18,090 bases of DNA. Source: Desulfobacterales bacterium (GTDB lineage: Bacteria > Desulfobacterota > Desulfobacteria > Desulfobacterales > JAHEIW01). The notes beneath the pieces were generated by a model that was given only the letters and a program-made list of their open reading frames with translations, did no database searches and was not told the DNA's origin. The stretch lies in contig JAQYWI010000110.1 of assembly GCA_030145015.1 (NCBI GenBank), forward strand, positions 1 to 18,090. The letters run 5' to 3'. A program made the translations under genes and the position numbers. Shown one piece after another: positions 1,171-17,948 of the stretch (the first letter of the stretch is position 1; every line of letters starts with the position of its first letter).

Positions 1171-1298
1171 AGCCGGGTTGAATCCGTGAATCATGAATCA
1201 GGGTCGGGCCAGGTTATCATTTTGTTTTTTTAAGAATCCCAAAAATAGCTTTTATTTTGTCTTAGATTTGCCTTTTTAGGACTAAAAGTGATCGTTTA

Positions 1299-1333
1299 AA
1301 AACAGAAAAGCCGCAGCCTACTCAGGCTGCGGC
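1299..1333 (-). terminator. Rho-independent terminator on the minus strand, downstream of a tRNA fragment
   Basis: A perfect 10-bp GC-rich stem (1310-1319 with 1324-1333) closes a 4-base loop. Read on the minus strand, the stem is followed by CTTTTCTGTTTTT, a classic U-rich tail. On the plus strand the following bases are mixed A/T, so termination is expected mainly for minus-strand transcription. It lies 10 bp beyond the CCA end of the tRNA-Leu 3' fragment, the usual position for a tRNA gene terminator. Confidence 0.75.
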
Positions 1334-1343
1334 AATTTAATTG

Positions 1344-1366
1344 TGGTGCCGAAGGCCGAAATTGAA
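1344..1366 (-). other. 3' fragment of a tRNA-Leu gene, possible attachment-site remnant
   Basis: On the minus strand the 23 bases read as a T-loop (TTCAATT), the 3' half of a T-stem (TCGGC), the acceptor 3' strand CTTCGGC, then ACCA. CTTCGGC-ACCA is typical of bacterial tRNA-Leu. Upstream of the T-loop the sequence (AATTT) can no longer pair with the T-stem, and no anticodon or D arm follows, so only the 3' end is present. A terminator lies immediately downstream. Short tRNA 3' ends of this type are what tyrosine-recombinase elements leave at an att boundary. No integrase gene is in the window, and a decayed tRNA gene is the alternative. Confidence 0.6.
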
Positions 1367-2080
1367 AAATTAATAATGATATCAAATAGTTAATAAAATC
1401 AAAGCTAGTTTAAGCGATATTAAGCTAGTTTTTGTACAGTCCTGGCTGCATATTCGCATATCAACTGCATATATCTATCCATTATTTCTTGAGCAGAGAT
1501 TTAATTATTAAAAATTGTCTTATTTATTAAAGTTACATTACAAAAAATAATTTTATCTCAATATAACCTTTTGTTTTTTATATAAGTTTTTTCATTTTTC
1601 TCTTGACATGAGGAATCGTATTTGTTTATAGAAGTATTGATAAATAGAAAATCGCCGAATATAAACCGTCCCCCCATTTTCTGACGTATAGGAGGTAAAA
1701 ATGCTTTAAGGCATCCAAAACTCCATTCATAGTTAAGGAATGGGGTTTTTGTTTGTTGACTAACTCTATAGCTCATCCTCTACGATTTTAATACTAATTC
1801 TCTTTGACCCCTACACCTGAATAAATTAAATCGATTAATTGATTCCTGGTCTCCACCGTTATCTGCATCTGCCTTACGGTCTTCTCTTCTTTAGATTACA
1901 ATTTTAGGTGAATCGAAAGGACCTTGCCGTATAAAAAGAGAGGCGTTCTCATTATTCTATTATGTTACAGCAAAAAACAGACTTATGAAATGTATAAATA
2001 GTACGGACGTACCCATTGTTCGTCTTCATTGTTTCAACAAATTTTATTGAAGTATCAAATGCATCAGAACAGGTTCAGAT
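1367..2080. other. Gene-free AT-rich stretch upstream of the operon
   Basis: No convincing gene is seen. The stretch holds a 10-bp direct repeat AAGCTAGTTT (1402-1411 and 1422-1431) and an abandoned translation start at 1690-1709. It also has a weak promoter-like pair before the operon (TTGTTT at 2029-2034 and TATCAA at 2053-2058, 18-bp spacing) that I would not rely on. A 72-codon minus-strand frame at 1558-1776 resembles nothing I know and has its ribosome site fused to the start. Confidence 0.5.
1690..1709 (+). promoter_or_regulatory. Ribosome site followed by a two-codon open frame
   Basis: AGGAGG (1690-1695), a 5-base spacer and ATG-CTT-TAA (1701-1709) form a textbook translation start that stops after two codons. 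It is either a decayed gene start or a coincidence. Confidence 0.3.
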
Positions 2081-2086
2081 AGGAGG
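2081..2086 (+). promoter_or_regulatory. Shine-Dalgarno site that fixes the operon's first start
   Basis: AGGAGG ends directly before the in-frame TTG at 2087 and lies six bases before the ATG at 2093. This places the real start at 2093. Confidence 0.8.
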
Positions 2087-2092
2087 TTGATT

Positions 2093-2920
2093 ATGGCATT
2101 TACCAACAACTGCGATCTATATGCTGCGATACATGAGGATGGCGTAAATCGAGTCATTCAACACATCAAACGCCAAAGACCATCATGGTTTAATTACGCC
2201 ACTGCTGATGTGATTAACAATCGCGAACTGTGGTGTGTATTAGTGGAGCACACCAATGATGTAACGAAATATGGAGACCCCTTGTTCACTGAAATGCCAC
2301 CCCTCCCAGTGCTCGGCACGGACTCACCTCCAGTTACCCTCGGATTCTGTGTGCAAATCATCAAAGCTATGATCGATTTCCATCCCAGCAATGTCATATC
2401 GCTACCCCGCGAGCTTAATCCACCGTTAACAAGGCAAAGCTTCGCACTCAATTTCAAAGTGTGTGGTGCCATCGCATGCCCTTCTGAAAATGATCTCGAG
2501 GCAATCCCCGTCCAGCCACCAACGCGTGCGCCAGATGAAAAAAAGCCGACTATCCCCCCACCAGTTCAAGTTCGAGGGCGAATGAATTGTTTCTGTCTTG
2601 ATGTCTTTGTTGTCGGGCATTTCGATCGTGATTTCCTCACAGGGGAGGAAAAATTGCTGGGAAAGGTTGACGATATCGAGATCGTAGATATCGAACCAAA
2701 AGGTCTTGAGGAAAACATCGAATGTTATTTGAAGTCGGCGGTAACTCTTGTTCTTCGACAGAAGCTAGCAATACCCTTTGCAACATTCTTCGTGGACTTT
2801 CCGCTCTTCGGCTTGGGCACTGTTTCGCTGGCCCCAACATCTAATCCTCCAGTGCCAAGTAATCCTGCGGTTGAAGAAGACCAGCTCAAAGCTTTCATCA
2901 CAATGTCGGTGAGTCCATAA
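2093..2920 (+). CDS. Uncharacterised protein, possibly TULIP-like lipid-binding fold (first gene of operon)
   Basis: The 275-residue product has no signal peptide and no membrane segment. It opens with an amphipathic helix (about residues 12-36). Alternating beta strands follow (around 83-92, 117-130 and 161-175), with a proline-rich linker near 137-156. Near 195-240 there is a strand-helix segment of the 'EPKGLEENIECYL' type ending in alternating hydrophobics. A long N-terminal amphipathic helix wrapped by curved strands is how TULIP proteins (BPI, SMP and clostridial P47/OrfX folds) look. That is my fold impression, not a demonstrated homology. I recall similar two-gene pairs in other bacteria, all uncharacterised. 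It is the promoter-proximal gene of a compact operon with 12 bases to the next gene, and its neighbours suggest a hydrophobic ligand. Confidence 0.75.
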   Translation: MAFTNNCDLYAAIHEDGVNRVIQHIKRQRPSWFNYATADVINNRELWCVLVEHTNDVTKYGDPLFTEMPPLPVLGTDSPPVTLGFCVQIIKAMIDFHPSNVISLPRELNPPLTRQSFALNFKVCGAIACPSENDLEAIPVQPPTRAPDEKKPTIPPPVQVRGRMNCFCLDVFVVGHFDRDFLTGEEKLLGKVDDIEIVDIEPKGLEENIECYLKSAVTLVLRQKLAIPFATFFVDFPLFGLGTVSLAPTSNPPVPSNPAVEEDQLKAFITMSVSP

Positions 2921-2932
2921 AAGGAGGGGAAC

Positions 2933-3838
2933 ATGAACCATTTCACTATTGCATCCTCGGAAGCAGCCTTCAGGCAGCTATTTAAGCTTCTTCGAGACAA
3001 TTTCAGTTTTTCTGACTCCGGAGGTGATAATTTTGGTCCATTTTCGGCGAGCTACGAAATTGCATTTCACTTAGAAAAAGGGACGATTAAGCTAAACAAT
3101 GACGGTACCATTGAAGTCGAAGCCCTCGATATCGTATGGGACACGCTCAGGGTGGAAGTATGCTTTGATCTACCAGGTATTCACATCCCTGGTTTTTGCA
3201 TCATTCCTGATCCATGGAACGGTTGCCTCGTTGGCGTACCGTCGATCAACATCGGCGGTCCCATCTGCATTCCTTTAGACATGAGCGGACTGGTTAGCGA
3301 AATATCTGAGATTCGTGCAAGGCTGAATGCAATATATTTCATTGACCCGGGCCGACTGACGAGTTGGTCTGATTTAGAGGCCGAGATCAACGGAAAACCG
3401 AATATGTGGCAAATCTTTATCGATCCAGAATTTGTCAGCGTAGACCCAATTGATGTTCCCCACACAATCGGGAATATTTTCGAGAACCTTGTGGAGGATG
3501 CCATTAGGGATATGCTTCCGGGTGGGCTGTTTGGTTGGGTCGTTGACTTGGTTTTTGAATTGCTCGGTCCAATCATCGACCTTATCACGTCGGCCCTGGA
3601 CATAGTCGACACTATTGAGGATTTCATCCAAGATCTGCTTGGAGACCTTTTTGGCTTCCTCACGCTCATTGAGACAGTTGTTGCTGATCACTTTGCTAAA
3701 AAATATCCAATACTCAAATTCGAAGATCCTTATCCAATTCTAACCGATGGGAGCCTAATACCAGTAAAAATCCCACTTCGAGACTTAAAAGTGAATGTAA
3801 ACACTAATGAAATGATCATCACAGGAGATGTAGGTTAA
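2933..3838 (+). CDS. Uncharacterised protein, possible TULIP-like partner of the preceding gene
   Basis: A very strong ribosome site (AAGGAGGGG) precedes the ATG. The 301-residue product has no signal peptide. An N-terminal amphipathic helix (about 8-23) is followed by strands with alternating hydrophobics (about 39-85). A Gly/Pro/Ile-rich hydrophobic stretch follows (about 85-125). A long run of amphipathic and very hydrophobic helices occupies about 180-262. The end is a final strand pair preceded by a PYPIL...LIPVKIP motif. The helical run is rich in Leu, Ile, Phe and Asp and could bind lipid or membrane surface, but it is too acidic and interrupted to be an obvious transmembrane domain. 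Its general plan resembles the preceding gene (helix then curved sheet), so the two may form a heterodimeric hydrophobic-ligand carrier. That is inference. Confidence 0.75.
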   Translation: MNHFTIASSEAAFRQLFKLLRDNFSFSDSGGDNFGPFSASYEIAFHLEKGTIKLNNDGTIEVEALDIVWDTLRVEVCFDLPGIHIPGFCIIPDPWNGCLVGVPSINIGGPICIPLDMSGLVSEISEIRARLNAIYFIDPGRLTSWSDLEAEINGKPNMWQIFIDPEFVSVDPIDVPHTIGNIFENLVEDAIRDMLPGGLFGWVVDLVFELLGPIIDLITSALDIVDTIEDFIQDLLGDLFGFLTLIETVVADHFAKKYPILKFEDPYPILTDGSLIPVKIPLRDLKVNVNTNEMIITGDVG

Positions 3839-3840
3839 CC

Positions 3841-4530
3841 ATGAAATCATTAAATACAGCTCGCACTCTGTTTAGGCAAATAGGATTGGACAGTGGCTCA
3901 CTCACGATGCTCGGGATCGTGGTCAATAGCTTCAGCGATCCGGGTGAATATCGGGGCACCGTGTATAAAGAGGGTGAAAACAAGGGTGTGTTCTATATTT
4001 CGGTCGATAAAAACAGCCCTGTCGCTCAGGCCAATATCGATCTTGCCGCCGTTACAGAGTCCGCTCCAAATCAATCCGAAGAGGCTTGCAAATGTGCCGA
4101 ATTGGAGAACCGTTTCTCAGTTAATCCAAGAGGCTATGTGCTGTTCCATGTTTCCTGCGGCCCTGGTGGATATAACGTCCGCGTGCGAAAGGCCGATGAG
4201 GACGAGGACACAAAGATCTTCGACAGCCGGAAATTGAGCAAAGGAGCCATTTTTGCGGCTACAATCTTACGCCCTGGAAGTTACTCGGTAACCAATAAAA
4301 TGGGCAAAGGAAAGGCCGCAGTTGTTGTGTCCTATCCCAGAAAACATAGGAAGGCCTACCGGCCGCCGGAACCTGTCCGAGTCAAGACAAAGGCGGAAGA
4401 ATTTTATCCTAAGCTCATTAAGCTGAAGCCTGCTCAGGGGCTTATCTTTGAAATCGAGTCATCTGCGCGAATCAAGATCGATTTGATGGAGCCCGATGAC
4501 GGTCCAAAGAAATCACAAAAAGCCTCATGA
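3841..4530 (+). CDS. Uncharacterised beta-rich protein of the prenyltransferase operon
   Basis: I do not recognise a family. The 229-residue product has no signal peptide. Its first 70 residues contain short strands and the motif GEYRGTVYKEG. A C83-x-C85 pair precedes a beta-sandwich-like segment (about 92-165) containing a further C106 and ending in a strand of type AAVVVSYP. The C-terminal 60 residues are basic and then end in a charged tail. The Cys pair followed by a beta domain recalls the C-terminal layout of the protease at 6757-9282, but the similarity is weak. It begins two bases after the preceding stop codon and its own stop overlaps the next start (ATGA), so all these proteins are probably made together. 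Confidence 0.7.
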   Translation: MKSLNTARTLFRQIGLDSGSLTMLGIVVNSFSDPGEYRGTVYKEGENKGVFYISVDKNSPVAQANIDLAAVTESAPNQSEEACKCAELENRFSVNPRGYVLFHVSCGPGGYNVRVRKADEDEDTKIFDSRKLSKGAIFAATILRPGSYSVTNKMGKGKAAVVVSYPRKHRKAYRPPEPVRVKTKAEEFYPKLIKLKPAQGLIFEIESSARIKIDLMEPDDGPKKSQKAS

Positions 4531-5642
4531 GAGGATTCGAACAGGTTGAGAGCCCAATCACGGCGCGGGATGTGCCGTGGTCTGGAGATCCTGCCTTTTT
4601 TAGGGTTCGCCAGCAATTAAATCGTCTCACGAGGCGTCTTGACCTTAAAGACGTCGATGGATTGATTTTCCGCGCCTATGATGCCATCTGCGGCCATTCG
4701 TTGGATTTCTCACCCGGTGAGAGGCCTCCGGGATTCTCACGAATCAATGTGGATGGAACACCTTTTCAATACAGTGCCAACTTAGGTGTGCCCTTTCGTT
4801 CACTTCAGTTTCTGGGTGAAGCCGGTAGGCCCAATGCATCTGGAAACGAGCGTATTCGTGCCAGTCTTGAGTGCATCGCTTATATAGCGAGCATTTTCGA
4901 AGCTAACGCTGAATTTAAAACCGCCAGAGATCTAATATCAGACCTTGCCCCTGTTAAAGATCCCCAATTAATAACCGATCCCGCAGGAGCGTTTTGGATC
5001 GGCACCGCATTTGCTCCGGATCGAAATCCACAGCTCCGAATTTATATAAACGGACGCTGGGGTAACGAGAATGATCGATGGGCCCAGTTTCGTCTTTTTG
5101 CCTCACGCTTTGGCGTGTTTAATACATGGATTGAAGCGGAAAAGATATTAACACCAGAAGTAAAACCCTTGGGATGCGCCTTGACTATCACCCGAGGTTC
5201 AAATGTTACCGGTCGCATTTATGTAAGTGCCTATGGAAAACTTATCGATTATTATGAGAGACTCGCTCGAGCAGTCAGTGGTGATCAGTTCGCTAATGTC
5301 TTACACCAATATGCGGAGTGCTTGTTGGGAGCCGATATCAAATATCCAACTCCGACAGCCGTTTGCTCGTTTGGACTTGTCGAAGGCAAACCTCTTGACT
5401 TCAAATTCGAACTTTGCATCCATTGTCTATTTACAAACGATGTTGACGCAAGCGAAAGACTGAACGAATGTTTTTCATTAGCGTGCGTGGATGCAGTCGA
5501 TTACCGTCACCTGCTGGAGGTTCTTGCGGAGGGTAAATTAGACAACCAGGCTCTTCAACTACACTGTTACGCTGGTGTTGGAGTTCGCCAGGGGGAAAAG
5601 TATTTTTCTGTGTACCTAAAGCCTAAGCTCATTGAGGTATAA
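4527..5642 (+). CDS. ABBA-fold (DMATS/cyanobactin-type) prenyltransferase-like protein
   Basis: ABBA prenyltransferases attach an isoprenoid diphosphate to an aromatic acceptor such as an indole, tyrosine or phenol without a DDxxD motif. They use a ring of Lys/Arg-x-Tyr pairs on barrel strands to hold the diphosphate. This 371-residue protein shows that pattern: R171-I-Y173, R230-I-Y232 and a final strand ending S-V-Y363-LKP, which is the usual C-terminal signature. The early strand DGTPFQYS (about 76-83) matches the position where DMATS enzymes have a catalytic Glu after TPF/TPI; here it is Gln81. Length fits the family (300-450). Its start overlaps the previous stop, and the next gene begins at its stop codon. 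No indole or peptide substrate gene is evident. The fold call is moderately sure and the substrate is unknown. It could also be a diverged, non-catalytic member. Confidence 0.6.
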   Translation: MRGFEQVESPITARDVPWSGDPAFFRVRQQLNRLTRRLDLKDVDGLIFRAYDAICGHSLDFSPGERPPGFSRINVDGTPFQYSANLGVPFRSLQFLGEAGRPNASGNERIRASLECIAYIASIFEANAEFKTARDLISDLAPVKDPQLITDPAGAFWIGTAFAPDRNPQLRIYINGRWGNENDRWAQFRLFASRFGVFNTWIEAEKILTPEVKPLGCALTITRGSNVTGRIYVSAYGKLIDYYERLARAVSGDQFANVLHQYAECLLGADIKYPTPTAVCSFGLVEGKPLDFKFELCIHCLFTNDVDASERLNECFSLACVDAVDYRHLLEVLAEGKLDNQALQLHCYAGVGVRQGEKYFSVYLKPKLIEV

Positions 5643-5644
5643 TT
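5634..5644 (+). promoter_or_regulatory. Ribosome site and ATT start, TAATT stop-start overlap
   Basis: GAGGT (5634-5638) is followed by TAATT. TAA ends the prenyltransferase gene and the overlapping ATT (5642-5644) is the best-placed start for the next gene. One base changed from the common TAATG overlap. Confidence 0.5.
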
Positions 5645-6616
5645 ATCGAAGACATCAATGCATTAAATCGTTCTATTGCTGCAGGTCTAAACTATATCCT
5701 GGATTGTCAGTCAATTGATGGATCCTGGACAGACTGGAATCTGCCGCCTGGGAGTTCCTCTATATGGACAACAGCTTATGTAAGCTGCAAGCTTAATGTG
5801 CTCCCAGAGCATTTAAAAACCAAAGCTGTCAATCGGATAATGTTGGCAGCGCAATGGCTCCTCAATCAGCAGTTCTTCGATGGAGGATGGGGTTACAACC
5901 CATCGGTAGAGTCAGATGCTGATTCAACATCGTTTGTTATTCTCGCGTTGAGGAACAGTCTCCTCGAGGTGCCCGAAATAGCTTACGAACACTTGGTTCG
6001 CTATCAGCAACAGGACGGCGGGTTTTCCACTTATCTACCCGATAACGGATTTAGCTCTTGGACAATATCGCATCCCGACGTGACACCCGTTGCTCTCCTT
6101 GCATTGTTAACCAGATCTGGGCCTTACGAGACTGCTATCCGTCGCGGCATTGCTCAAGTTTGCCGACAGCAAACCACGGGCGGTGTATGGAATTCTTTTT
6201 GGTGGAATTCTTGTCTCTACGCAACAGAGGCATGCTTGTCTTTATTGCACAAAATAGGCGCGTCAAAACTGCTTTACTCTAGAATAACAAATATGAAGCC
6301 AACCAATGCCTTTGAATATGCCCTGTTAATTTCATCGATAATAAAATGCTTTCTTAGCACTTCACACACACTATTTAAGAGTTTGACTGACCGTCTCATA
6401 CTGGAGCAACGAGCAGATGGAAGTTGGAAAAGCGAGCCAGTACTCAGAATTACCCGGCGTGATTGTTTCAAACCATGGTCTGATCCTGATCCTGGTCCAT
6501 TGTTTTCGGATTTCAGGAGGTTGTTCACCTCCGCGACCGTCCTTAATGCCCTGTCGTGTGCTTACAAACTGGTATCAAATGAGCAATTTAATAATGGTCA
6601 ACCATACAGACTCTGA
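5642..6616 (+). CDS. Squalene-cyclase/prenyltransferase-repeat protein (terpene-cyclase fold)
   Basis: The 324-residue product is an alpha/alpha-barrel protein of the terpene cyclase/PFTB repeat superfamily. QW-like repeats are visible: QSIDGSW (23-29), QQFFDGGW (about 76-83), QQQDGGF (about 122-128), a QQTTGGVW segment and EQRADGSW near the C-terminus. In place of the class II cyclase DxDD it has D92-A93-D94-S-T, a version common in stand-alone bacterial members whose chemistry is unclear. No ATG, GTG or TTG precedes codon 53 (GTG at 5798). Yet residues 12-52, including the first QW-like repeat and a WTTAY motif, are plainly part of the fold, so the ATT at 5642 (or ATC at 5645) is preferred. 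It follows an ABBA prenyltransferase with a one-base overlap, so it may cyclise or bind the prenyl chain that enzyme adds. It is shorter than squalene-hopene cyclases (about 630 residues), consistent with a single barrel. Confidence 0.7.
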   Translation: MIEDINALNRSIAAGLNYILDCQSIDGSWTDWNLPPGSSSIWTTAYVSCKLNVLPEHLKTKAVNRIMLAAQWLLNQQFFDGGWGYNPSVESDADSTSFVILALRNSLLEVPEIAYEHLVRYQQQDGGFSTYLPDNGFSSWTISHPDVTPVALLALLTRSGPYETAIRRGIAQVCRQQTTGGVWNSFWWNSCLYATEACLSLLHKIGASKLLYSRITNMKPTNAFEYALLISSIIKCFLSTSHTLFKSLTDRLILEQRADGSWKSEPVLRITRRDCFKPWSDPDPGPLFSDFRRLFTSATVLNALSCAYKLVSNEQFNNGQPYRL

Positions 6617-6756
6617 CTACATAGTTGGTTTGAATTGGCTAAAAGATTACAAATGGAAAAATTAAAGGCGTTATTTATGGTTAATTCTCGAGTCTCCAAA
6701 CCTTCTTAATTCCAAATTGACAGAAAAGTAGAGTTATCACCAAAGGGAGGTGGAGT

Positions 6757-9282
6757 ATGAGACCGTCACACATTAATTCAAATATTCTTTTTATAATCAC
6801 CTCGGCCATTCTTTGTATTTTCGTTTTTAGCAGCAGCTTCGGCGCATCTGATATCAAAGACGTACAGGCACGCTTCAAGAATGCGAAGATTAAAATGGAC
6901 AGAAAAACGTCGATTCCCATCAAAATTTCTGGATTGAATTACAAACCTGAAAGGCTATCGGAAATCGGGATACCGATTACAGAAAAAAATGTCGAAAAAT
7001 TATTTAAAGCCTTTCTCGATGAAAACAGAGCTGTGCTGGAGGTTGATTCTGAAAATCTTGCGCTTGTGTCCAAAACAATTCGGAAAGACAAATGGTATGT
7101 GAAGTATCAACAATTGTACAAGGGCATCCCTGTAATAAATTCAACGGTTGGTATGGTCGGCACAGAGCGGGGCGAAATAAAAAGTTATGCCGCATCTTAC
7201 AATCCTAAAATCGAATTGGATGTTGCAGAAAAAATTTCTGAGGAAAAGGCTATCGCCATTGCCAAAGAAACTTATGCTAAAGAGATTCTACCTGAAATAA
7301 CAATAAGGAAAATTGAAAAGGTTATCGTACCCGCTAAGGAAGGTTCTCATCCTGAGTATTACCTTGCATGGCGTATTGATGTGCTTACAAAGTCGGATCG
7401 TGTTAAAAATGACAAAATTTTCATAATAGATGCACTTACTGGAAAAATCATTCAGCAATATCCATCGCGGTTTTATGGCACGCATGCATCTGGGACTGTT
7501 AATGCCGAAATATATCCCGAGAACCCGACTGATGCTGTAACCACATTACCGATGGCCCACGAGCGGGTCAGGTGCGATGGCCCTTTCTGGAATGGCACAA
7601 CAACCACCAACCAATCCGGCTCATGGCAAATCAATACACCGTGGTGGACATCGTTTTTTTCCCAGTATGACGCTAATTTTCAACTCATTGGCCCTTACGC
7701 CCATGTCCAGGATAATGTCGGAAACGATTATATCGAAGACGCGAACTGCCGTGTCGGTAATACCTGCAATTTCACCTGGACAGACACCGACCGCGACCAT
7801 ATCAACGTTTTTCATCACATCAACGCGCTGCATGACTGGTACAAGAGCCATCTTAACTACAGCTGGGTAAATTCCTGGGACGGTACAAGCCGTTTCAACG
7901 CGGAAGTCAATCATACTTACAATAATGCATATGCCGGTGACCCAATGGGCTACGGCACAGACAACTTTGCCCGCTCAAGTGATGTCGTCTACCATGAGTG
8001 TACACACAATGTATTGCATGCATTGTATGGTGATTATGTGGGGTTTCCTGATTTGTTCGAGGAGTCATACGGTTTTGATGAGGGTTTTGCTGATTATTTT
8101 GCTGGAGCAATAACAAATGATCCGATACATGGTGAAGGCTATGGCGGAACAAGGACATTAGATAATACGAATATGTATACCAACAAAGCCACTTACAATA
8201 CTGAAGGCCATACTGGAGGGACAATCATTGCTGGTGCGGCATGGGATTTAAGAGGAATGCTGCAAGCAAGACTGGGCGATGCACAGGGTGCCAGACTGGT
8301 CGACAATTTAATTTTCGACGCCCTTGTAGGAATGGCAGCCATGCCGAGAGACTATTATTTCTCCGATCCTCAGGAAAGCAACTTTCTAACCTGCCTCTAT
8401 CAGGCGGACGACAATAATAACAACCTGATGGATGGCGTTCCGCATTTTTATTATATTCAGGAGGCCCTTGAGAATCATAATCTACTGCAGGCTGAACTAA
8501 AGAATCGTGATAGTTACGATGTGTCGCTAAACACATTGGGCACCATTACAGGAGGCGATTTTTACTTTTACGATGATGCCTTCTGGTCAAACAATGTGGG
8601 GCAGCGCGGTGTCCAGGATCTTGGTGATATTGGTACCGTGGCGCTAGAAAATGTCACTATACCTAGCACCGGCTATACTCGGCAAAGAGTCGATGCTGCA
8701 ATCAATCATACTTACGTGGCACTTGCCCAGCAGGGGGAAGAGGGTAGCTATATCGTGTTTCGGGTGAGTGATTTCGATGCCGCCAGCGATGAAGTGGTCA
8801 TCCAGTACCTGTATCGTACTCCGTTGCTGATCGACTTTGACGATATCTGCAGATTATTTCCTTCCCTCTGCAGGCAGATTTTTCCTTGTGCCAGATATCG
8901 ATTTCTGTGCGAAGCAGATATCGTTTTCCCCTATGAGGATGGATTGATCGTTGAATTTGTAGATGACATGGATATTGTCACTGTCCCTGTCGAGGAAATT
9001 TGCAAATATGTACTGGAGTGCCCCGGATGCGAACCTTCAGGCTTCTGTCCAGGATATAACATTAACTTTGTAGGCTTGCCGCAGCCATTTGGTTTTGCTG
9101 TCTACGATAACAGAGGCCGGAAGGTTGCAGAAAATCTAAAAAATACACTAAACAAAACCCTTGAGTTCAAAGCAGACAAACGACTGAAATATTTCCTCGT
9201 GGTGTCTCCGGCTAAAGAAAGCAAGCTAGATGTCCAGTATCGTTTGCCCATGAAGATCAGCGCACAAGGTATCCCTCGTTGA
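6757..9282 (+). CDS. Secreted zinc metalloprotease, thermolysin/fungalysin-like (M4/M36), with Cys-rich C-terminal domain
   Basis: The 841-residue product starts after a strong site (GGGAGGTGG) with a Sec signal peptide (hydrophobic core about 9-28, cleavage near FGA-SD, about 30). An FTP propeptide (about 85-135, YQQLYKGIPV motif) and a PepSY-like segment (about 160-233) act in this family as chaperone and inhibitor until removed. The catalytic domain has H413-E414-C-T-H417 and the third zinc ligand E442 in DEGFADYF. The 25-residue gap suits M36 better than M4. A downstream GAAWDLR helix is also M36-like. The domain after about 690 carries eight cysteines (698, 705, 711, 718, 749, 755, 758, 764) and a beta-rich tail that may be disulfide-bonded, possibly for attachment or substrate choice. 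It is 140 bases after the cyclase-like gene with its own ribosome site, so it is likely in the same locus but perhaps separately controlled. It could mature an exported protein or act as an effector. Confidence 0.85.
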   Translation: MRPSHINSNILFIITSAILCIFVFSSSFGASDIKDVQARFKNAKIKMDRKTSIPIKISGLNYKPERLSEIGIPITEKNVEKLFKAFLDENRAVLEVDSENLALVSKTIRKDKWYVKYQQLYKGIPVINSTVGMVGTERGEIKSYAASYNPKIELDVAEKISEEKAIAIAKETYAKEILPEITIRKIEKVIVPAKEGSHPEYYLAWRIDVLTKSDRVKNDKIFIIDALTGKIIQQYPSRFYGTHASGTVNAEIYPENPTDAVTTLPMAHERVRCDGPFWNGTTTTNQSGSWQINTPWWTSFFSQYDANFQLIGPYAHVQDNVGNDYIEDANCRVGNTCNFTWTDTDRDHINVFHHINALHDWYKSHLNYSWVNSWDGTSRFNAEVNHTYNNAYAGDPMGYGTDNFARSSDVVYHECTHNVLHALYGDYVGFPDLFEESYGFDEGFADYFAGAITNDPIHGEGYGGTRTLDNTNMYTNKATYNTEGHTGGTIIAGAAWDLRGMLQARLGDAQGARLVDNLIFDALVGMAAMPRDYYFSDPQESNFLTCLYQADDNNNNLMDGVPHFYYIQEALENHNLLQAELKNRDSYDVSLNTLGTITGGDFYFYDDAFWSNNVGQRGVQDLGDIGTVALENVTIPSTGYTRQRVDAAINHTYVALAQQGEEGSYIVFRVSDFDAASDEVVIQYLYRTPLLIDFDDICRLFPSLCRQIFPCARYRFLCEADIVFPYEDGLIVEFVDDMDIVTVPVEEICKYVLECPGCEPSGFCPGYNINFVGLPQPFGFAVYDNRGRKVAENLKNTLNKTLEFKADKRLKYFLVVSPAKESKLDVQYRLPMKISAQGIPR

Positions 9283-9721: not shown

Positions 9722-10308
9722 ATGGCTAAATATAAACGCTACGATTATTCACAAAGTGTACTGATTCCGGTTTCATTAGAAGAACAGTTGGTGCCGGGAA
9801 CCCTGGAGTTTGCCATCCATACGCTGGTGGACAGCCGCATGGATATGTCGATCTTTGATGATAACTATCAAAACGATGAGACGGGCAGAAGCGCCTATGA
9901 TCCTAAGATTTTGTTAAAAGTCGTATTATTAGGATATTCGCGGGGTTTGACATCCTCGCGTCAGATCGAGAGGGCCTGCTGTGAGAATGTTTTGTTTATG
10001 GCAATGTCGTGTAACCAGCGACCTGATCATAGCACCATTGCCCCCTTTGTTTCTTCGATGAAAGATCAAATCAAACCGTTGTTCAGAGATATATTGCTGG
10101 TCTGTGATCAAGAGGGTCTTTTGGGCGGGAGCTTTTTTGCCATTGATGGCTGCAAAATGTCGTCCAATGCTTCTAAGGAATGGAGCGGTAAAATAAGTGA
10201 TTTGCAAAAAAGGAAGCAAAAGATTGAAGGCAAGCTCAAGGCGTTGGTTGAAGATCATATTGAGATAGACAAAGAAGAGCATGGGGTTGATCCAGCTTCA
10301 AAAAAATC
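9722..10308 (+). mobile_element. IS1182-family transposase, 3'-truncated
   Basis: About 195 residues survive from a transposase normally near 450-500. The N-terminal DUF772 domain (YDPKILLKVVLLGYSRGLTS and CCENVLFMAMSC) is intact. The first catalytic aspartate is present in FFAIDGCKMSSNASK, followed by the start of a lysine-rich helical insert ending at GVDPASKK. After an A-run at about 10301-10307 homology stops and the frame reads 20 unrelated codons from the neighbouring peroxidase in the wrong frame. Two of the three DDE residues are gone, so it cannot transpose. The break is likely a recombination or deletion at the A-run that also removed the 5' part of the peroxidase gene. Confidence 0.85.
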
Positions 10309-10898
10309 AGTCTGCGGTCGAGTTTTTCGGAACCATTTTAGGCAGGGGTTTCAGTCCCCTGATGGATGAAAGGGCAGTTGTCGACTGGCATGAACTTCTG
10401 GAAACGAGTGAAAACCGCAATGTTCAGATGGCTGAGAAGCTTGACACTCAATTAGCAACCGACTTGCTAAAACTGCCGTTTATCCCAGAGGACGACATCC
10501 AGTCTTTGGCATCTCGTAATCTTCTGCGGGGTCAAACTTTTCTCCTACCTTCCGGGGAGAACATCGCCAGAGCAATTCAAAGGCCTGATTCCGAAATTGA
10601 TAATATCAGTCAGTCTACGAAAAGCATTGCCAGTGAAGCTGCTGATCTTAAAAACGGAACACCTTTGTGGTTTTACATTTTAAGAGAAGCAAAGGAAATC
10701 GGCCGGGAGACCAATCCGGGCGAATTTGAACCCGGTGAGGGGTTGGGTCCCGTTGGCGCGCGTATTGTGGCAGAAACGATGATCGGTCTGATCGAGCTTG
10801 ATTCACGATCCTATCTTGCAAAGAATCGGAACTGGAGTCCTGATCAAGGCGTTGGCGTAGCTTCCCTCGGAGAAATGCTCACCTATCAACCGTCCTAA
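10309..10898 (+). pseudogene. Heme peroxidase (animal-type), C-terminal fragment
   Basis: About 195 residues match the C-terminal third of bacterial animal-heme-peroxidase-family proteins. Visible motifs are VVDWHELL, LASRNLLRGQTFLLPSGE, NGTPLWFYILREA, LGPVGARIVAE and an LGEML tail. The N-terminal part with the distal histidine and most of the heme pocket is missing; it is replaced by the IS1182 fragment. The reading frame is open from an ATG inside the IS (10281), so a fusion peptide could be made. Without the heme-binding part, though, it cannot be an active peroxidase. No N-terminal half exists elsewhere in the window. Confidence 0.8.
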
Positions 10899-12823: not shown

Positions 12824-13276
12824 ATGATATCGAACGATCAATTCCGAAAACGGTTAAGGGAGCTGTTCAGTTCTCAAAGTCTGGCAGCTTTATCCACCCA
12901 CCATGATGGTCAGCCCTATGCCAGTCTGGTTGCTTTTTATAGTTCGGATGATCTCCGGCATATTTATTTTGTAACACCGAAAACAACGCGAAAGTATGCC
13001 AATTTAGCAGCCGACCACCGCGTGGCGTTAATGGTCAACAGCAGCACGAACCAGATCTCGGATTTTCATCAAGCCATTTCTGTAACCGCCGTCGGTAGCG
13101 CTGAAGAAATCGGAGAAGCGGAAAAGGTGCCGATTGTAAAACAATATCTGGCGAAGCATCCCCACCTGGAAGATTTTGTTCGCGCACCGACATGTGCCCT
13201 GGTGGGGGTATCCGTAAAAACCTATTACCTGGTTAAAAACTTTCAAAATGTTATGGAGCTGCACCTGGAACCATGA
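12824..13276 (+). CDS. Pyridoxamine 5'-phosphate oxidase-fold (PPOX) FMN-binding protein
   Basis: The 150-residue protein has the split-barrel flavin-binding layout. Strand SLAALSTHHDGQPYASLVAFY is followed by a second strand pair (HIYFVTPKTTRKYANLAAD), the family's FMN-phosphate region, then VALMVNSS and a helix with KHPHLEDFV. Such short PPOX proteins usually bind FMN, F420 or heme and act as oxidoreductases or binding proteins; the substrate is unknown. It is a close paralogue of the gene at 15493-15936 (shared KYxNLAA, HPHLxxF). Its stop overlaps the next start in ATGA, so it is translationally coupled to the PEP-synthase-like enzyme and probably works with it. No clear ribosome site precedes the ATG. 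Confidence 0.85.
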   Translation: MISNDQFRKRLRELFSSQSLAALSTHHDGQPYASLVAFYSSDDLRHIYFVTPKTTRKYANLAADHRVALMVNSSTNQISDFHQAISVTAVGSAEEIGEAEKVPIVKQYLAKHPHLEDFVRAPTCALVGVSVKTYYLVKNFQNVMELHLEP

Positions 13277-15459
13277 ACTGGATTCTGTCTGCTGAAGAAA
13301 TCCAATCCGCTGATCGTCGCCGGGTGGGCGGTAAAGGATATGCTCTTTCGTTACTGGTGAAAAGCGGTTTCAGGATTCCCGCGACCGTTTGCATCACCAG
13401 CGATGTTTATCAGGAATTTGTTCTGCGGACGGGCTTGCGTGAGCGAATTTTGCTCGAACTTCATCGTAAAGATTTTAAGGAAATGCGCTGGGAAGAAATC
13501 TGGGACTGCGCCACCCGCATCCGCAATATGTTCCTGGGCAAACCATTTCCGGATGACCTCGCACAGGAAATTCGCTCCGCTATCGGCGACCGATTCCGGG
13601 ATGTAACAGTGGCTGTGCGATCGTCGGCGCCGGAAGAAGATGATGCCCGATCGTCCTTTGCCGGACTTCACGACTCCTTTATCAATGTGGCTGGTGCGGA
13701 ATCGATTTTAAAACATATCCGCCTGGTGTGGGCCTCACTCTGGTCGGATGCTGCTTTATTGTACCGCCAGGAAATAGGTCTGGATGTTGAAAAGAGCTCG
13801 ATGGCAGTGGTGATACAGGAGACCGTGGTCGGTGATCGGTCCGGGGTGGTCTTTACCCGCAATCCCAATGACGAGAATCAGGGTATTATCGAATCCGTCT
13901 ACGGGTTAAACCAGGGACTTGTGGACGGCACCGTGGAACCCGATCGCTGGATTTTGGATCGATCCCGCAACACGATTGTTACGCACACCCCTTCTGAGCG
14001 CAAGTGCTGGATGATACCGGGCCCAAACGGTGTTCGCCTGGCGGAGTTGCCCGCAGAAAAATCAGCCCATCCGCCCCTGAGCCCCCAGGACGTGAAATTT
14101 GTATTTAAAACCGCGCGCCAGGCGGAAGAATCGTTTAAGATGCCCCAGGATGTTGAGTGGACCTATGACGGCGATTCTCTGGTCCTGCTTCAATCCCGTC
14201 CCATAACCACCCTGCGTTCTGATGAATCCAAAGATGAACGTGGCTGGTATCTGAGCCTGCACCGCAGCTTTGATAATCTCCAAAACCTGCGTCGCAAAAT
14301 TGAAGATGAGCTGATTCCCGGTATGATTGCGGTGGCCGAAAGCTTGGGCGCCATAGATCCTGCTGGGTTGCCGGATCAGGAGTTGGCAGCTGAAATCAAA
14401 AAGCGCTGGGAGATCAACCACAAGTGGGTCAACATTTACTGGGCGGATTTTATTCCCTATGCCCATGGTGTGCGGATGTTCGGACAGGTCTACAACGATG
14501 CCGTGCAACCCGTTGATCCCTATGAATTTATTGATCTGCTCACCAACACCGATATGGCCAGTATCGAGCGAAACAACATGTTGATGGATCTGGCTGCTGT
14601 CATCCGCAGCGATCAACAGCTGGCGAAAAAACTGAAGCAGGGGGATGATACCAATCTTGATGCCAAATTTCGATCAAAGACTGACGAATTTATTGAAAAA
14701 TTCGGCGACCTGTCCTGCGCCGTGACCGGTGGTAAGAATTGCGTGCTGGGCACCGGTCCGCTATACCGACTGCTGCTGGAAATGGCCGACCATCCGGCCC
14801 CCACCGAAACTCCTCACAAAAAGGATAGAGTCAATCGCTTGCATCAGACTTATTTCAACAGCTTTGACGACGATCAGAAAGGGTGGGCGGAAGAACTGCT
14901 TGAACTGGCCAGGAGCAGTTATCGGCTGCGGGATGACGACAATATTTATCTCGGCCGTATTGAAGCGCAGTTGCTGGCGGCCGTCCAGGAAGCCAAACGA
15001 CGGCTTGAAGATCCGTCAGGCCATCCGGCATCGGAAATATTGAAACAGGCGTTGGAAGAAGTCGATTTCGGAACCGAATCCCGGAAATCAGGCCCTGCTG
15101 CAGCAGCGACCGGAGATAACCTCCAGGCCCGGCAGTTGCTCGGCCAGCCCGCAGGTCCCGGAATCGCCAAAGGCAAGGCCCGGGTGATCCGGAAACATTC
15201 CGATTTGGCCGATTTCAAATACGGTGAGGTACTGGTTTGCGATGCGGTCGATCCCAACATCACATTTGTCGTGCCTCTGGCGACAGCCGTTGTTGAGCGC
15301 AGGGGCGGAATGTTGATTCATGGGGCCATCATTGCTCGCGAATACGGATTGCCCTGCATTACCGGCATCCCGGACGCAACCACCTTGATTGAAAGCGGGG
15401 ATGAAATAACTGTGGATGGATACCTGGGGATTGTCACCCTGGGTGGCACCGGGCTGTGA
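13273..15459 (+). CDS. PEP-synthase/rifampin-phosphotransferase-like dikinase
   Basis: The 728-residue enzyme has an N-terminal PEP/pyruvate-binding ATP-grasp domain (about 1-315). Its motifs are VGGKGYALSLL, VAVRSSAPEEDDA with R116, SFAGLHDSF, QETVVGDRSGVVFTRNP, and the terminal LLQSRPITT with R309. A diverged middle region (about 320-610) separates it from a mobile phosphohistidine domain (about 620-728). That domain has the acceptor histidine H683 in GGMLIHGAIIAREYGLP. In this family ATP phosphorylates the histidine, which then passes phosphate to an acceptor such as pyruvate or rifampin. The PEP-synthase C-terminal barrel is absent, so it is not a canonical PpsA. It is closer in layout to rifampin phosphotransferase (N domain, acceptor domain, His domain), but the acceptor is unknown. 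It is coupled to the PPOX gene by an ATGA overlap. Confidence 0.85.
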   Translation: MNWILSAEEIQSADRRRVGGKGYALSLLVKSGFRIPATVCITSDVYQEFVLRTGLRERILLELHRKDFKEMRWEEIWDCATRIRNMFLGKPFPDDLAQEIRSAIGDRFRDVTVAVRSSAPEEDDARSSFAGLHDSFINVAGAESILKHIRLVWASLWSDAALLYRQEIGLDVEKSSMAVVIQETVVGDRSGVVFTRNPNDENQGIIESVYGLNQGLVDGTVEPDRWILDRSRNTIVTHTPSERKCWMIPGPNGVRLAELPAEKSAHPPLSPQDVKFVFKTARQAEESFKMPQDVEWTYDGDSLVLLQSRPITTLRSDESKDERGWYLSLHRSFDNLQNLRRKIEDELIPGMIAVAESLGAIDPAGLPDQELAAEIKKRWEINHKWVNIYWADFIPYAHGVRMFGQVYNDAVQPVDPYEFIDLLTNTDMASIERNNMLMDLAAVIRSDQQLAKKLKQGDDTNLDAKFRSKTDEFIEKFGDLSCAVTGGKNCVLGTGPLYRLLLEMADHPAPTETPHKKDRVNRLHQTYFNSFDDDQKGWAEELLELARSSYRLRDDDNIYLGRIEAQLLAAVQEAKRRLEDPSGHPASEILKQALEEVDFGTESRKSGPAAAATGDNLQARQLLGQPAGPGIAKGKARVIRKHSDLADFKYGEVLVCDAVDPNITFVVPLATAVVERRGGMLIHGAIIAREYGLPCITGIPDATTLIESGDEITVDGYLGIVTLGGTGL

Positions 15460-15492
15460 GTGGCGGCCAGGGAGGCCGATAGATGATGGCGT

Positions 15493-15936
15493 CTAGGAAA
15501 CGGAATCCGGCAAATCTTCGAAGGATGCCCGGGTCAGGCCATTGAGCAGCAAAAATGATTTTATCTTAATCTGAAAAACTTCTGCTTCGGGGTGGCCCAT
15601 GAACTCATTTAAGTGGGGGTGGGCTGACAATAGTTTCCGGCGAACCTTTTTTTCTTTGGCAGGGTCCTCAATTTTTTGGAAGAGACCTTCAACGGTCATT
15701 GCCCTCGCTGCAGATCGGGGCGATGTGTCACGGGTGTCAATCAATAGACTTACAGCCGGATTTGCAGCCAAATTTTGGTATTTCTGCGTTTGCCTGTGGG
15801 TTACCATGTATATTTCGGTGCATGCCCCATTGGTGACATAGGCCATCAGGGAGCAATATGGTTTGTTGCCGGCTATGGTTGCCAGAACGCAACTGTTTTT
15901 TTCTCTGGCCAGAGCTTTCATTTCTTCCAGCATCAT
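15493..15936 (-). CDS. PPOX-fold FMN-binding protein, paralogue
   Basis: The 147-residue protein is a second copy of the short PPOX family. It has SCVLATIAGNKPYCSLMAYV, IYMVTHRQTQKYQNLAANP, VSLLIDTR and AHPHLNEFM, each matching the protein at 12824-13276. A ribosome site (AGGAG) precedes ATG-ATG at 15936/15933. It converges on the PEP-synthase-like gene with a 33-base gap that holds only a short GGCC-AGGGA-GGCC hairpin. The substrate is not predictable. Confidence 0.85.
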   Translation of the reverse strand: MMLEEMKALAREKNSCVLATIAGNKPYCSLMAYVTNGACTEIYMVTHRQTQKYQNLAANPAVSLLIDTRDTSPRSAARAMTVEGLFQKIEDPAKEKKVRRKLLSAHPHLNEFMGHPEAEVFQIKIKSFLLLNGLTRASFEDLPDSVS

Positions 15937-17534: not shown

Positions 17535-17561
17535 TCATATCATATTGTGCAGCCTCTGATA

Positions 17562-17567
17562 AAGGAG
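17562..17567 (+). promoter_or_regulatory. Ribosome site that fixes the last PPOX gene's start
   Basis: AAGGAG ends six bases before the ATG at 17574. This makes the upstream in-frame GTG at 17547 an unlikely start. Confidence 0.8.
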
Positions 17568-17573
17568 ATTACC

Positions 17574-17948
17574 ATGAACCTTAAAGAATACTTTGATTCC
17601 AACAAAGGGATCGGGGTCTTGTCCACGGCTAATAGTGACGGTAAGGTTGATGCGGCTATATATGCCAGACCCCATTTTATGGAAGACGGTACCCTGGCGT
17701 TGATAATGCGCGACCGTCTTTCCCATCAGAACCTGCAGTCCAATCCCCATGCATCCTATCTTTTTAAAGCAGAAGGTTCTGGCTACAGGGGCAAAAGACT
17801 TTTTATGACCAAGGTAAGAGAAGAGCAGAATACCGAACTGCTGGAATCCCTGCGACGCAGAAAGTCCGCATATGGGAATGGTGAAGACAGGTTTCTTGTT
17901 TTTTTTAAGCTGGACAAAGAGCTACCGCTTGTCGGGGATGGAAAGTAA
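17574..17948 (+). CDS. PPOX-fold flavoprotein (intact paralogue of the 12566-12754 fragment)
   Basis: The 124-residue protein has a split-barrel start (GIGVLSTANSDGKVDAAIYARP), a central MRDRLSHQNLQSNPHASYLF segment typical of flavin-phosphate binding, GYRGKRLF, and a LFKLDKELPLVG tail. Its C-terminal half matches the broken copy at 12566-12754. The substrate is unknown. It differs from the two KYxNLAA-type PPOX genes in the window, which form a separate subfamily. Confidence 0.85.
   Translation: MNLKEYFDSNKGIGVLSTANSDGKVDAAIYARPHFMEDGTLALIMRDRLSHQNLQSNPHASYLFKAEGSGYRGKRLFMTKVREEQNTELLESLRRRKSAYGNGEDRFLVFFKLDKELPLVGDGK

Follow-up and report, generated by a model that had tools for sequence, protein, structure and literature searches.

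We analysed an 18,090-nucleotide stretch of DNA from a Desulfobacterales bacterium (contig JAQYWI010000110.1; hereafter the window) and found that five of its genes, g1, g2, g3, PT (for prenyltransferase) and CYC (for cyclase), form a cassette whose order recurs elsewhere in four named phyla. PT is by sequence a relative of the DMATS/ABBA prenyltransferases and CYC of the MstE-type class II terpene cyclases, g2 has a predicted TULIP fold, and the first three genes (the trio) also occur without PT. No description of this operon was found in the open-access literature searched. We lean toward a five-protein pathway in which PT prenylates, CYC cyclises and the trio serves as a hydrophobic-ligand module; it is probably cytosolic, as no signal-peptide-like N-terminus was seen by eye among the five proteins. 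PT would move a prenyl chain, by analogy C20, from its diphosphate onto an aromatic acceptor, most likely indole or tryptophan; CYC would next protonate the chain and close rings on the same molecule; and the two TULIP-type proteins together with g3 would hold the acceptor or the product, either while the two steps proceed or once they are over, or would themselves be the acceptor. A preliminary description of the locus had suggested a carrier-bound, prenylated and perhaps cyclised metabolite as the output, which is plausible, with product and acceptor hypothetical. We infer the order of the steps, the acceptor, the carrier role and the joint action of the five proteins; in favour of the pathway we count the families of PT and CYC, the overlap of their genes, the recurring gene order, the correlated protein identities, the split in the g2 tree, the predicted TULIP fold of g2, the lack of a small open reading frame common to different lineages in the flanks (a few weak or partial matches aside) and the precedent of NctPC, all taken up below.

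PT loci came from one pattern scan of 84,980 species genomes, in which 56 stretches matched and seven were confirmed: two from Nitrosomonas, one each from Acidobacteria, Dormibacterota and Terriglobia, and two from Pseudonocardiales (L005, L006). The order g1-g2-g3-PT-CYC is kept at 7/7 of these as far as the contigs go; two contigs end within the cassette, so that L003 shows the order in part, from within g2 onwards, and L007 from within g3. This recurrence is more than chance, and it contradicts the possibility, raised in the preliminary description, that homologues are never neighbours elsewhere. Identities between the window and L001 are 64 percent for g1, 63 for g2, 52 for g3, 45 for PT and 52 for CYC. 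When six complete loci are compared pair by pair (15 pairs), the identity values of the five proteins correlate with one another at 0.94 to 0.99, a range that shared descent would also produce and that two near-identical pairs inflate.

Within the window the five genes lie head to tail and tightly spaced, as first described: g1 and g2 are separated by 12 bases and g2 and g3 by 2, g3 and PT overlap by 4, and CYC touches the PT stop codon, a contact that rests on an inferred start. At six of the seven orthologous loci (L001, L002, L003, L005, L006 and L007) CYC begins with ATG or GTG within a 4-base RTGA overlap on the PT stop; L004 is the only one without it. Databases yielded 70 relatives of PT from a single sequence query, and 781 of g1 and at least 599 of g2 from profile queries, counts that are not directly comparable. 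At least 13 of the 70 PT entries are on contigs size-matched exactly to a g1 or g2 entry, as compared with the best 120 of 781 for g1 and 119 of the best 120 of 599 for g2.

Families of the five proteins

PT was without a Pfam match. Against the DMATS-type NCBIfam model TIGR03429 it gave E 5.2e-5 and 22.7 bits; because the cut-off is 163.85, PT is by its sequence a distant relative outside that subfamily. A profile combining the PT of the window with 44 of the 70 relatives matched CymD at 4.5e-11 (positions 8-359 of 362) and 6-DMATS at 5e-10. At PT position 98, which aligns with a Glu of CymD, 40 of the 45 rows have E, 4 have D and one has T; Arg109, Tyr173, Tyr232 and Tyr326 are each present in 45/45. 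Glu98 may be catalytic and the Arg and Tyr residues may bind diphosphate, their equivalence to known catalytic residues being taken from one alignment. The profile similarity to CymD together with the sub-threshold TIGR03429 hit supports the earlier claim that PT belongs, as a relative, among the DMATS/ABBA prenyltransferases; it resembles them in its full-length profile match and perhaps in the conserved Glu and Arg/Tyr positions, but differs in being very divergent and in its gene context.

The CYC profile matched, over nearly the full length, 8PAK (4.5e-47), 8PAJ (6.6e-44), 6IJ1 (7.2e-35) and MstE (about 4e-32), and its acid motif D92-A-D94-S-T96 is invariant in 8/8 sequences and aligns with the DADST of 8PAK, 8PAJ and 6IJ1. 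Its one-domain length is also typical of MstE-type enzymes. The terpene cyclase proposed in the preliminary description is thus supported, as a putative MstE-type monodomain class II enzyme. Where CYC differs from MstE and the other monodomain class II cyclases (6SBB, 8PAK, 8PAJ, 6IJ1) is in its partners, an ABBA prenyltransferase and TULIP proteins. PT and CYC are distant from characterised enzymes, and could serve as new tools for late-stage terpenylation.

A precedent for their pairing is NctPC, which is reportedly the work of Hubrich et al. 2024 and is known here via a review. As described in the relevant part of PMC13290415, NctPC consists of an ABBA-fold prenyltransferase fused to an MstE-like cyclase, and geranylgeranylates tryptophan before cyclising it. 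Going by that description, what it has in common with the window is an ABBA-fold prenyltransferase working with an MstE-like one-domain cyclase. The differences are that NctPC unites both enzymes in a single chain, which acts on tryptophan, whereas here there are two separate genes, with a 4-base overlap in 6/7 orthologues, and that these are preceded by the TULIP trio, with no shared precursor open reading frame (ORF) found.

Of the trio proteins, g1 and g2 were without match in the Pfam search, and when they were compared with PDB sequences up to E 10, P47 and OrfX were not among the matches. Structure prediction gave g2 a TULIP fold and g1 a weak TULIP likeness, so that of the two TULIP-like proteins initially claimed one stands on its predicted fold and the other only weakly; both are probable lipid-pocket proteins on these models. 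In predicted fold g2, and weakly g1, resemble YceB, BPI/LBP, P47 and OrfX2/3; unlike these, they show no sequence match and come as a tandem pair with a third, beta-rich gene. Levine 2019 (PMC6791001), in the part that lists bacterial TULIPs, names P47, OrfX2 and YceB and extends the set by DUF4403, DUF2140 and DUF2993. We found no sequence kinship of g1 with g2 or g3. The third protein, g3, was without a significant match of its own; because the g3 of L035 matches both plastocyanin (7.2e-5) and the g3 profile (2.6e-10), g3 is perhaps a cupredoxin-like beta protein. The trio thus comprises two TULIP-type families (one of them probable) within a three-gene module that is unnamed in the family libraries searched.

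The trio at loci without PT and CYC

The preliminary description had asked whether g1 to g3 are constant companions of the prenyltransferase and cyclase; they are not, since ten trio loci lack both nearby. Nine are genomes in which the trio genes stand in order and PT and CYC are absent from the fetched stretch (L017, L018, L029-L035). These include some imperfect cases: the contig of L033 ends within g1, that of L031 stops 420 bases past g3, L030 has an interrupted g1 and L034 an interrupted g2, and L035 is only very distantly related (g2 E 5e-20). The tenth, L020, is an IMG/VR contig on which genes for portal, terminase and tail proteins accompany the trio, with PT and CYC absent nearby; it is a fragment, recovered by three scans, and the only viral contig with the trio. 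A PT profile run over 17 records matched the seven PT genomes, 0/9 of the trio-only genomes and not the L020 fragment; for CYC the absence applies to the nearby stretch. In genome searches with the g2 profile we found hits in 1/398 genomes of the phylum of G001 and 2/125 of its family, 2/297 of the phylum of G003, 2/151 of the phylum of G004, 2/200 of the order of G005 and 8/298 of the class of G926, and, known seed loci only, in 1/9 of the class of G595 and 1/250 of the order of G001; these genome sets overlap and contain the seed genomes.

A g2 tree of 84 rows separated six PT-associated from nine PT-less rows by a branch with 100/100 support and length 0.99; it was midpoint-rooted with L035 left out, 69 of its rows are without known context, and the program warned of long branches meeting. 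The simplest reading is that PT and CYC perhaps joined the trio once. The trio would be a module older than its association with PT and CYC, which lie behind it at every PT locus seen, the converse not holding. In the cassette a prenylation-cyclisation pair was added to this module, perhaps a single time, and the whole was afterwards kept across four named phyla.

A further comparison is with the orfX-p47 clusters, which PMC7020563, in the part concerned, presents as TULIP operons beside varied toxin genes. The trio could be an accessory module of this sort with varying cargo, PT and CYC being one cargo without a direct biochemical link to the TULIP ligands. What the two have in common is a TULIP operon with changing neighbours. 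The sequences differ, with g1 and g2 showing no match to P47 or OrfX and no membership in those families; PT and CYC stand close behind the trio at all seven PT loci, within the limits of the contigs; and what follows the trio in L017 and L020 may be there without any relation to it. We regard this explanation as unlikely. Toxin genes were not noticed at the PT loci in ORF listings, no dedicated search having been made.

We considered whether the cassette came from a plasmid or a phage and set this aside: PT, g1 and g2 were without match in plasmids, no PT was found in viral contigs, and the trio is in a single viral contig, L020, whose g2 had no match to phages and plasmids. Nor did g2 match a viral structure library at E 0.001.

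Some trio-only loci show further features. In L017 the trio is followed by a 780-aa protein (1294-3636) in which the motif GFNPQPEPP recurs and for which Pfam gave nothing above its cut-off. In L020 the trio (2592-5099) lies on the strand opposite to the portal, terminase and tail genes, and the 329-aa ORF after it (5319-6308) looks by eye like an M15/MepA-type peptidase, without a confident family match. In L033 the g1 and g2 matches fall in one open frame (5011-6549), perhaps a fusion of g1 and g2, truncated where the contig stops.

Possible acceptors and products

Among flanks of up to 2 kb at the seven loci and the window (upstream sequence is missing at L003 and L007 and short at L005), no precursor-like small ORF was common to different lineages, in keeping with the original remark that no precursor of a ribosomally synthesised and post-translationally modified peptide was visible. 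The small ORFs that did match were terminal pieces of g1 and CYC, one of them read from the other strand, and a weak L001/L003 match of 20 residues (E 0.004) inside otherwise unrelated flanks; a distant or lineage-specific precursor might escape this search.

The trio proteins might then themselves be the substrate, with a polycyclic terpenoid built on g1 Trp47 or on g2 Trp95, Trp145 or Trp159 to give a covalent lipid on a TULIP protein. The lack of a lineage-shared precursor speaks for this, as does the tryptophan-modifying prenyltransferase-cyclase fusion described in the cited part of PMC13290415. Because NctPC acts on tryptophan, we compared trio tryptophans with PT presence. Trp47, the only invariant Trp of g1, is W in 86/86 rows of the close set and L or F in 8/8 informative PT-less rows; in g2, 74/75 close rows have W at Trp145 versus 0/8 PT-less rows. 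Position 198 of g2, the third column specific to the close set, is W in 73/75 close rows, but the window has Gly there and the 0/3 rests on three PT-less letters. Trp159 (9/9) and Trp95 (6/10), moreover, are W in PT-less rows too. Conserved columns specific to the close set comprised 3/5 of Trp columns versus 29/180 of the others (one-sided Fisher p 0.037, uncorrected; 28/179 and p 0.034 when a g1 column without PT-less letters is dropped), a weak statistic, as one long stem branch parts the sets and the gene context is known for only a few of the 86 and 75 rows. Trp47 also falls within a confidently modelled region of g1, not in a flexible tail. We consider a protein substrate improbable. Terpenoid modification of this kind on a folded protein was not found in the open-access literature searched. 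The cassette offers a route to asking what bacterial TULIPs carry, and whether terpenoid cyclisation happens on a carrier or on a protein.

A stronger competitor is a small diffusible meroterpenoid made from a common metabolite (free tryptophan, indole, a phenol or a quinol), with the trio storing, shielding or exporting the product; we think this quite possible, if short of an even chance. MstE-type cyclases work on small prenylated aromatics, and in L005 CYC is followed by a P450 (4852-6174; Pfam 5.2e-26), as expected for a tailored metabolite. The CymD and DMATS relatives are, according to the part of PMC3227686 that covers them, indole prenyltransferases of secondary metabolism. Against a diffusible product, no repeated scaffold gene, transporter or regulator was seen in the ORF listings of the seven loci, which were viewed around each locus, the systematic comparison covering the window genes.

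The absence of a P450, as first reported, holds for the window, but at the Pseudonocardiales locus L005 the ORF beside CYC is a P450 by Pfam. The L006 ORF (12249-13571) resembles the L005 P450 as judged from the ORF listing, Pfam having been run for L005 only. By eye, the frame after the P450-like ORF in both loci looks like a glycosyltransferase.

Gene layout and other features of the window

Table 1. Coordinates of the cassette genes and the downstream protease in the window
Feature	Position	Strand	Length (aa)	Description
g1	2093..2920	+	275	Opens the trio; probably TULIP-like; no Pfam match
g2	2933..3838	+	301	TULIP fold by prediction; no Pfam match
g3	3841..4530	+	229	Perhaps a cupredoxin-like beta protein, judging from one very distant homologue
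PT	4527..5642	+	371	Divergent DMATS-type ABBA prenyltransferase
CYC	5642..6616	+	324	Class II terpene cyclase of one domain; probably starts at a codon other than ATG (ATT 5642 or ATA 5639)
Metalloprotease ORF	6757-9282			FTP-type; HECTH motif present

With ATG, GTG or TTG starts, the earliest CYC start in the ORF listing is GTG 5798, which would leave a 155-base gap after PT and remove 52 residues common to the orthologues. The CYC frame is open as far back as 5636, with an in-frame TGA at 5633-5635, and its codons near the PT stop read TGA GGT ATA ATT ATC. All seven orthologues align to the longer frame starting at its residue 1 to 7. Because of this open frame and these alignments, the true start is most likely ATA 5639 or ATT 5642, at the PT stop. 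The presence of ATA/ATT at the conserved start (5633-5648), with no ATG, GTG or TTG, would fit either a rare start codon or a decaying gene.

The preliminary description had added the secreted metalloprotease to the operon, a membership that we reject: tblastn showed no relative of the protease at 7/7 related loci as far as sequence reaches (best E 1.1), and the gene lies 140 bases downstream of CYC with its own Shine-Dalgarno-like stretch in front. A defence system was likewise discarded, with 0 PADLOC matches across the five proteins. No RNA elements or tRNAs in the window reached gathering score, and searches for internal promoters and terminators gave fewer sites than in shuffles and were uninformative.

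Just upstream of the trio, L001 encodes radical SAM and heparinase-like proteins (4051-7197), with matching ORFs in L002; the pair was not noticed at the other loci. Further along the window, at 9722-10898, a transposase-like ORF (DUF772) overlaps a 205-aa ORF, a possible insertion scar; the 205-aa ORF, without a Pfam match, looks by eye like the C-terminal portion of a haem peroxidase. The stretches 12824-15936 and 17547-17948 hold genes for three small PNPOx-like proteins, of which the third scores under the Pfam cut-off, and one of these genes overlaps that of a 728-aa PPDK_N/PEP-utilising enzyme by 4 bases.

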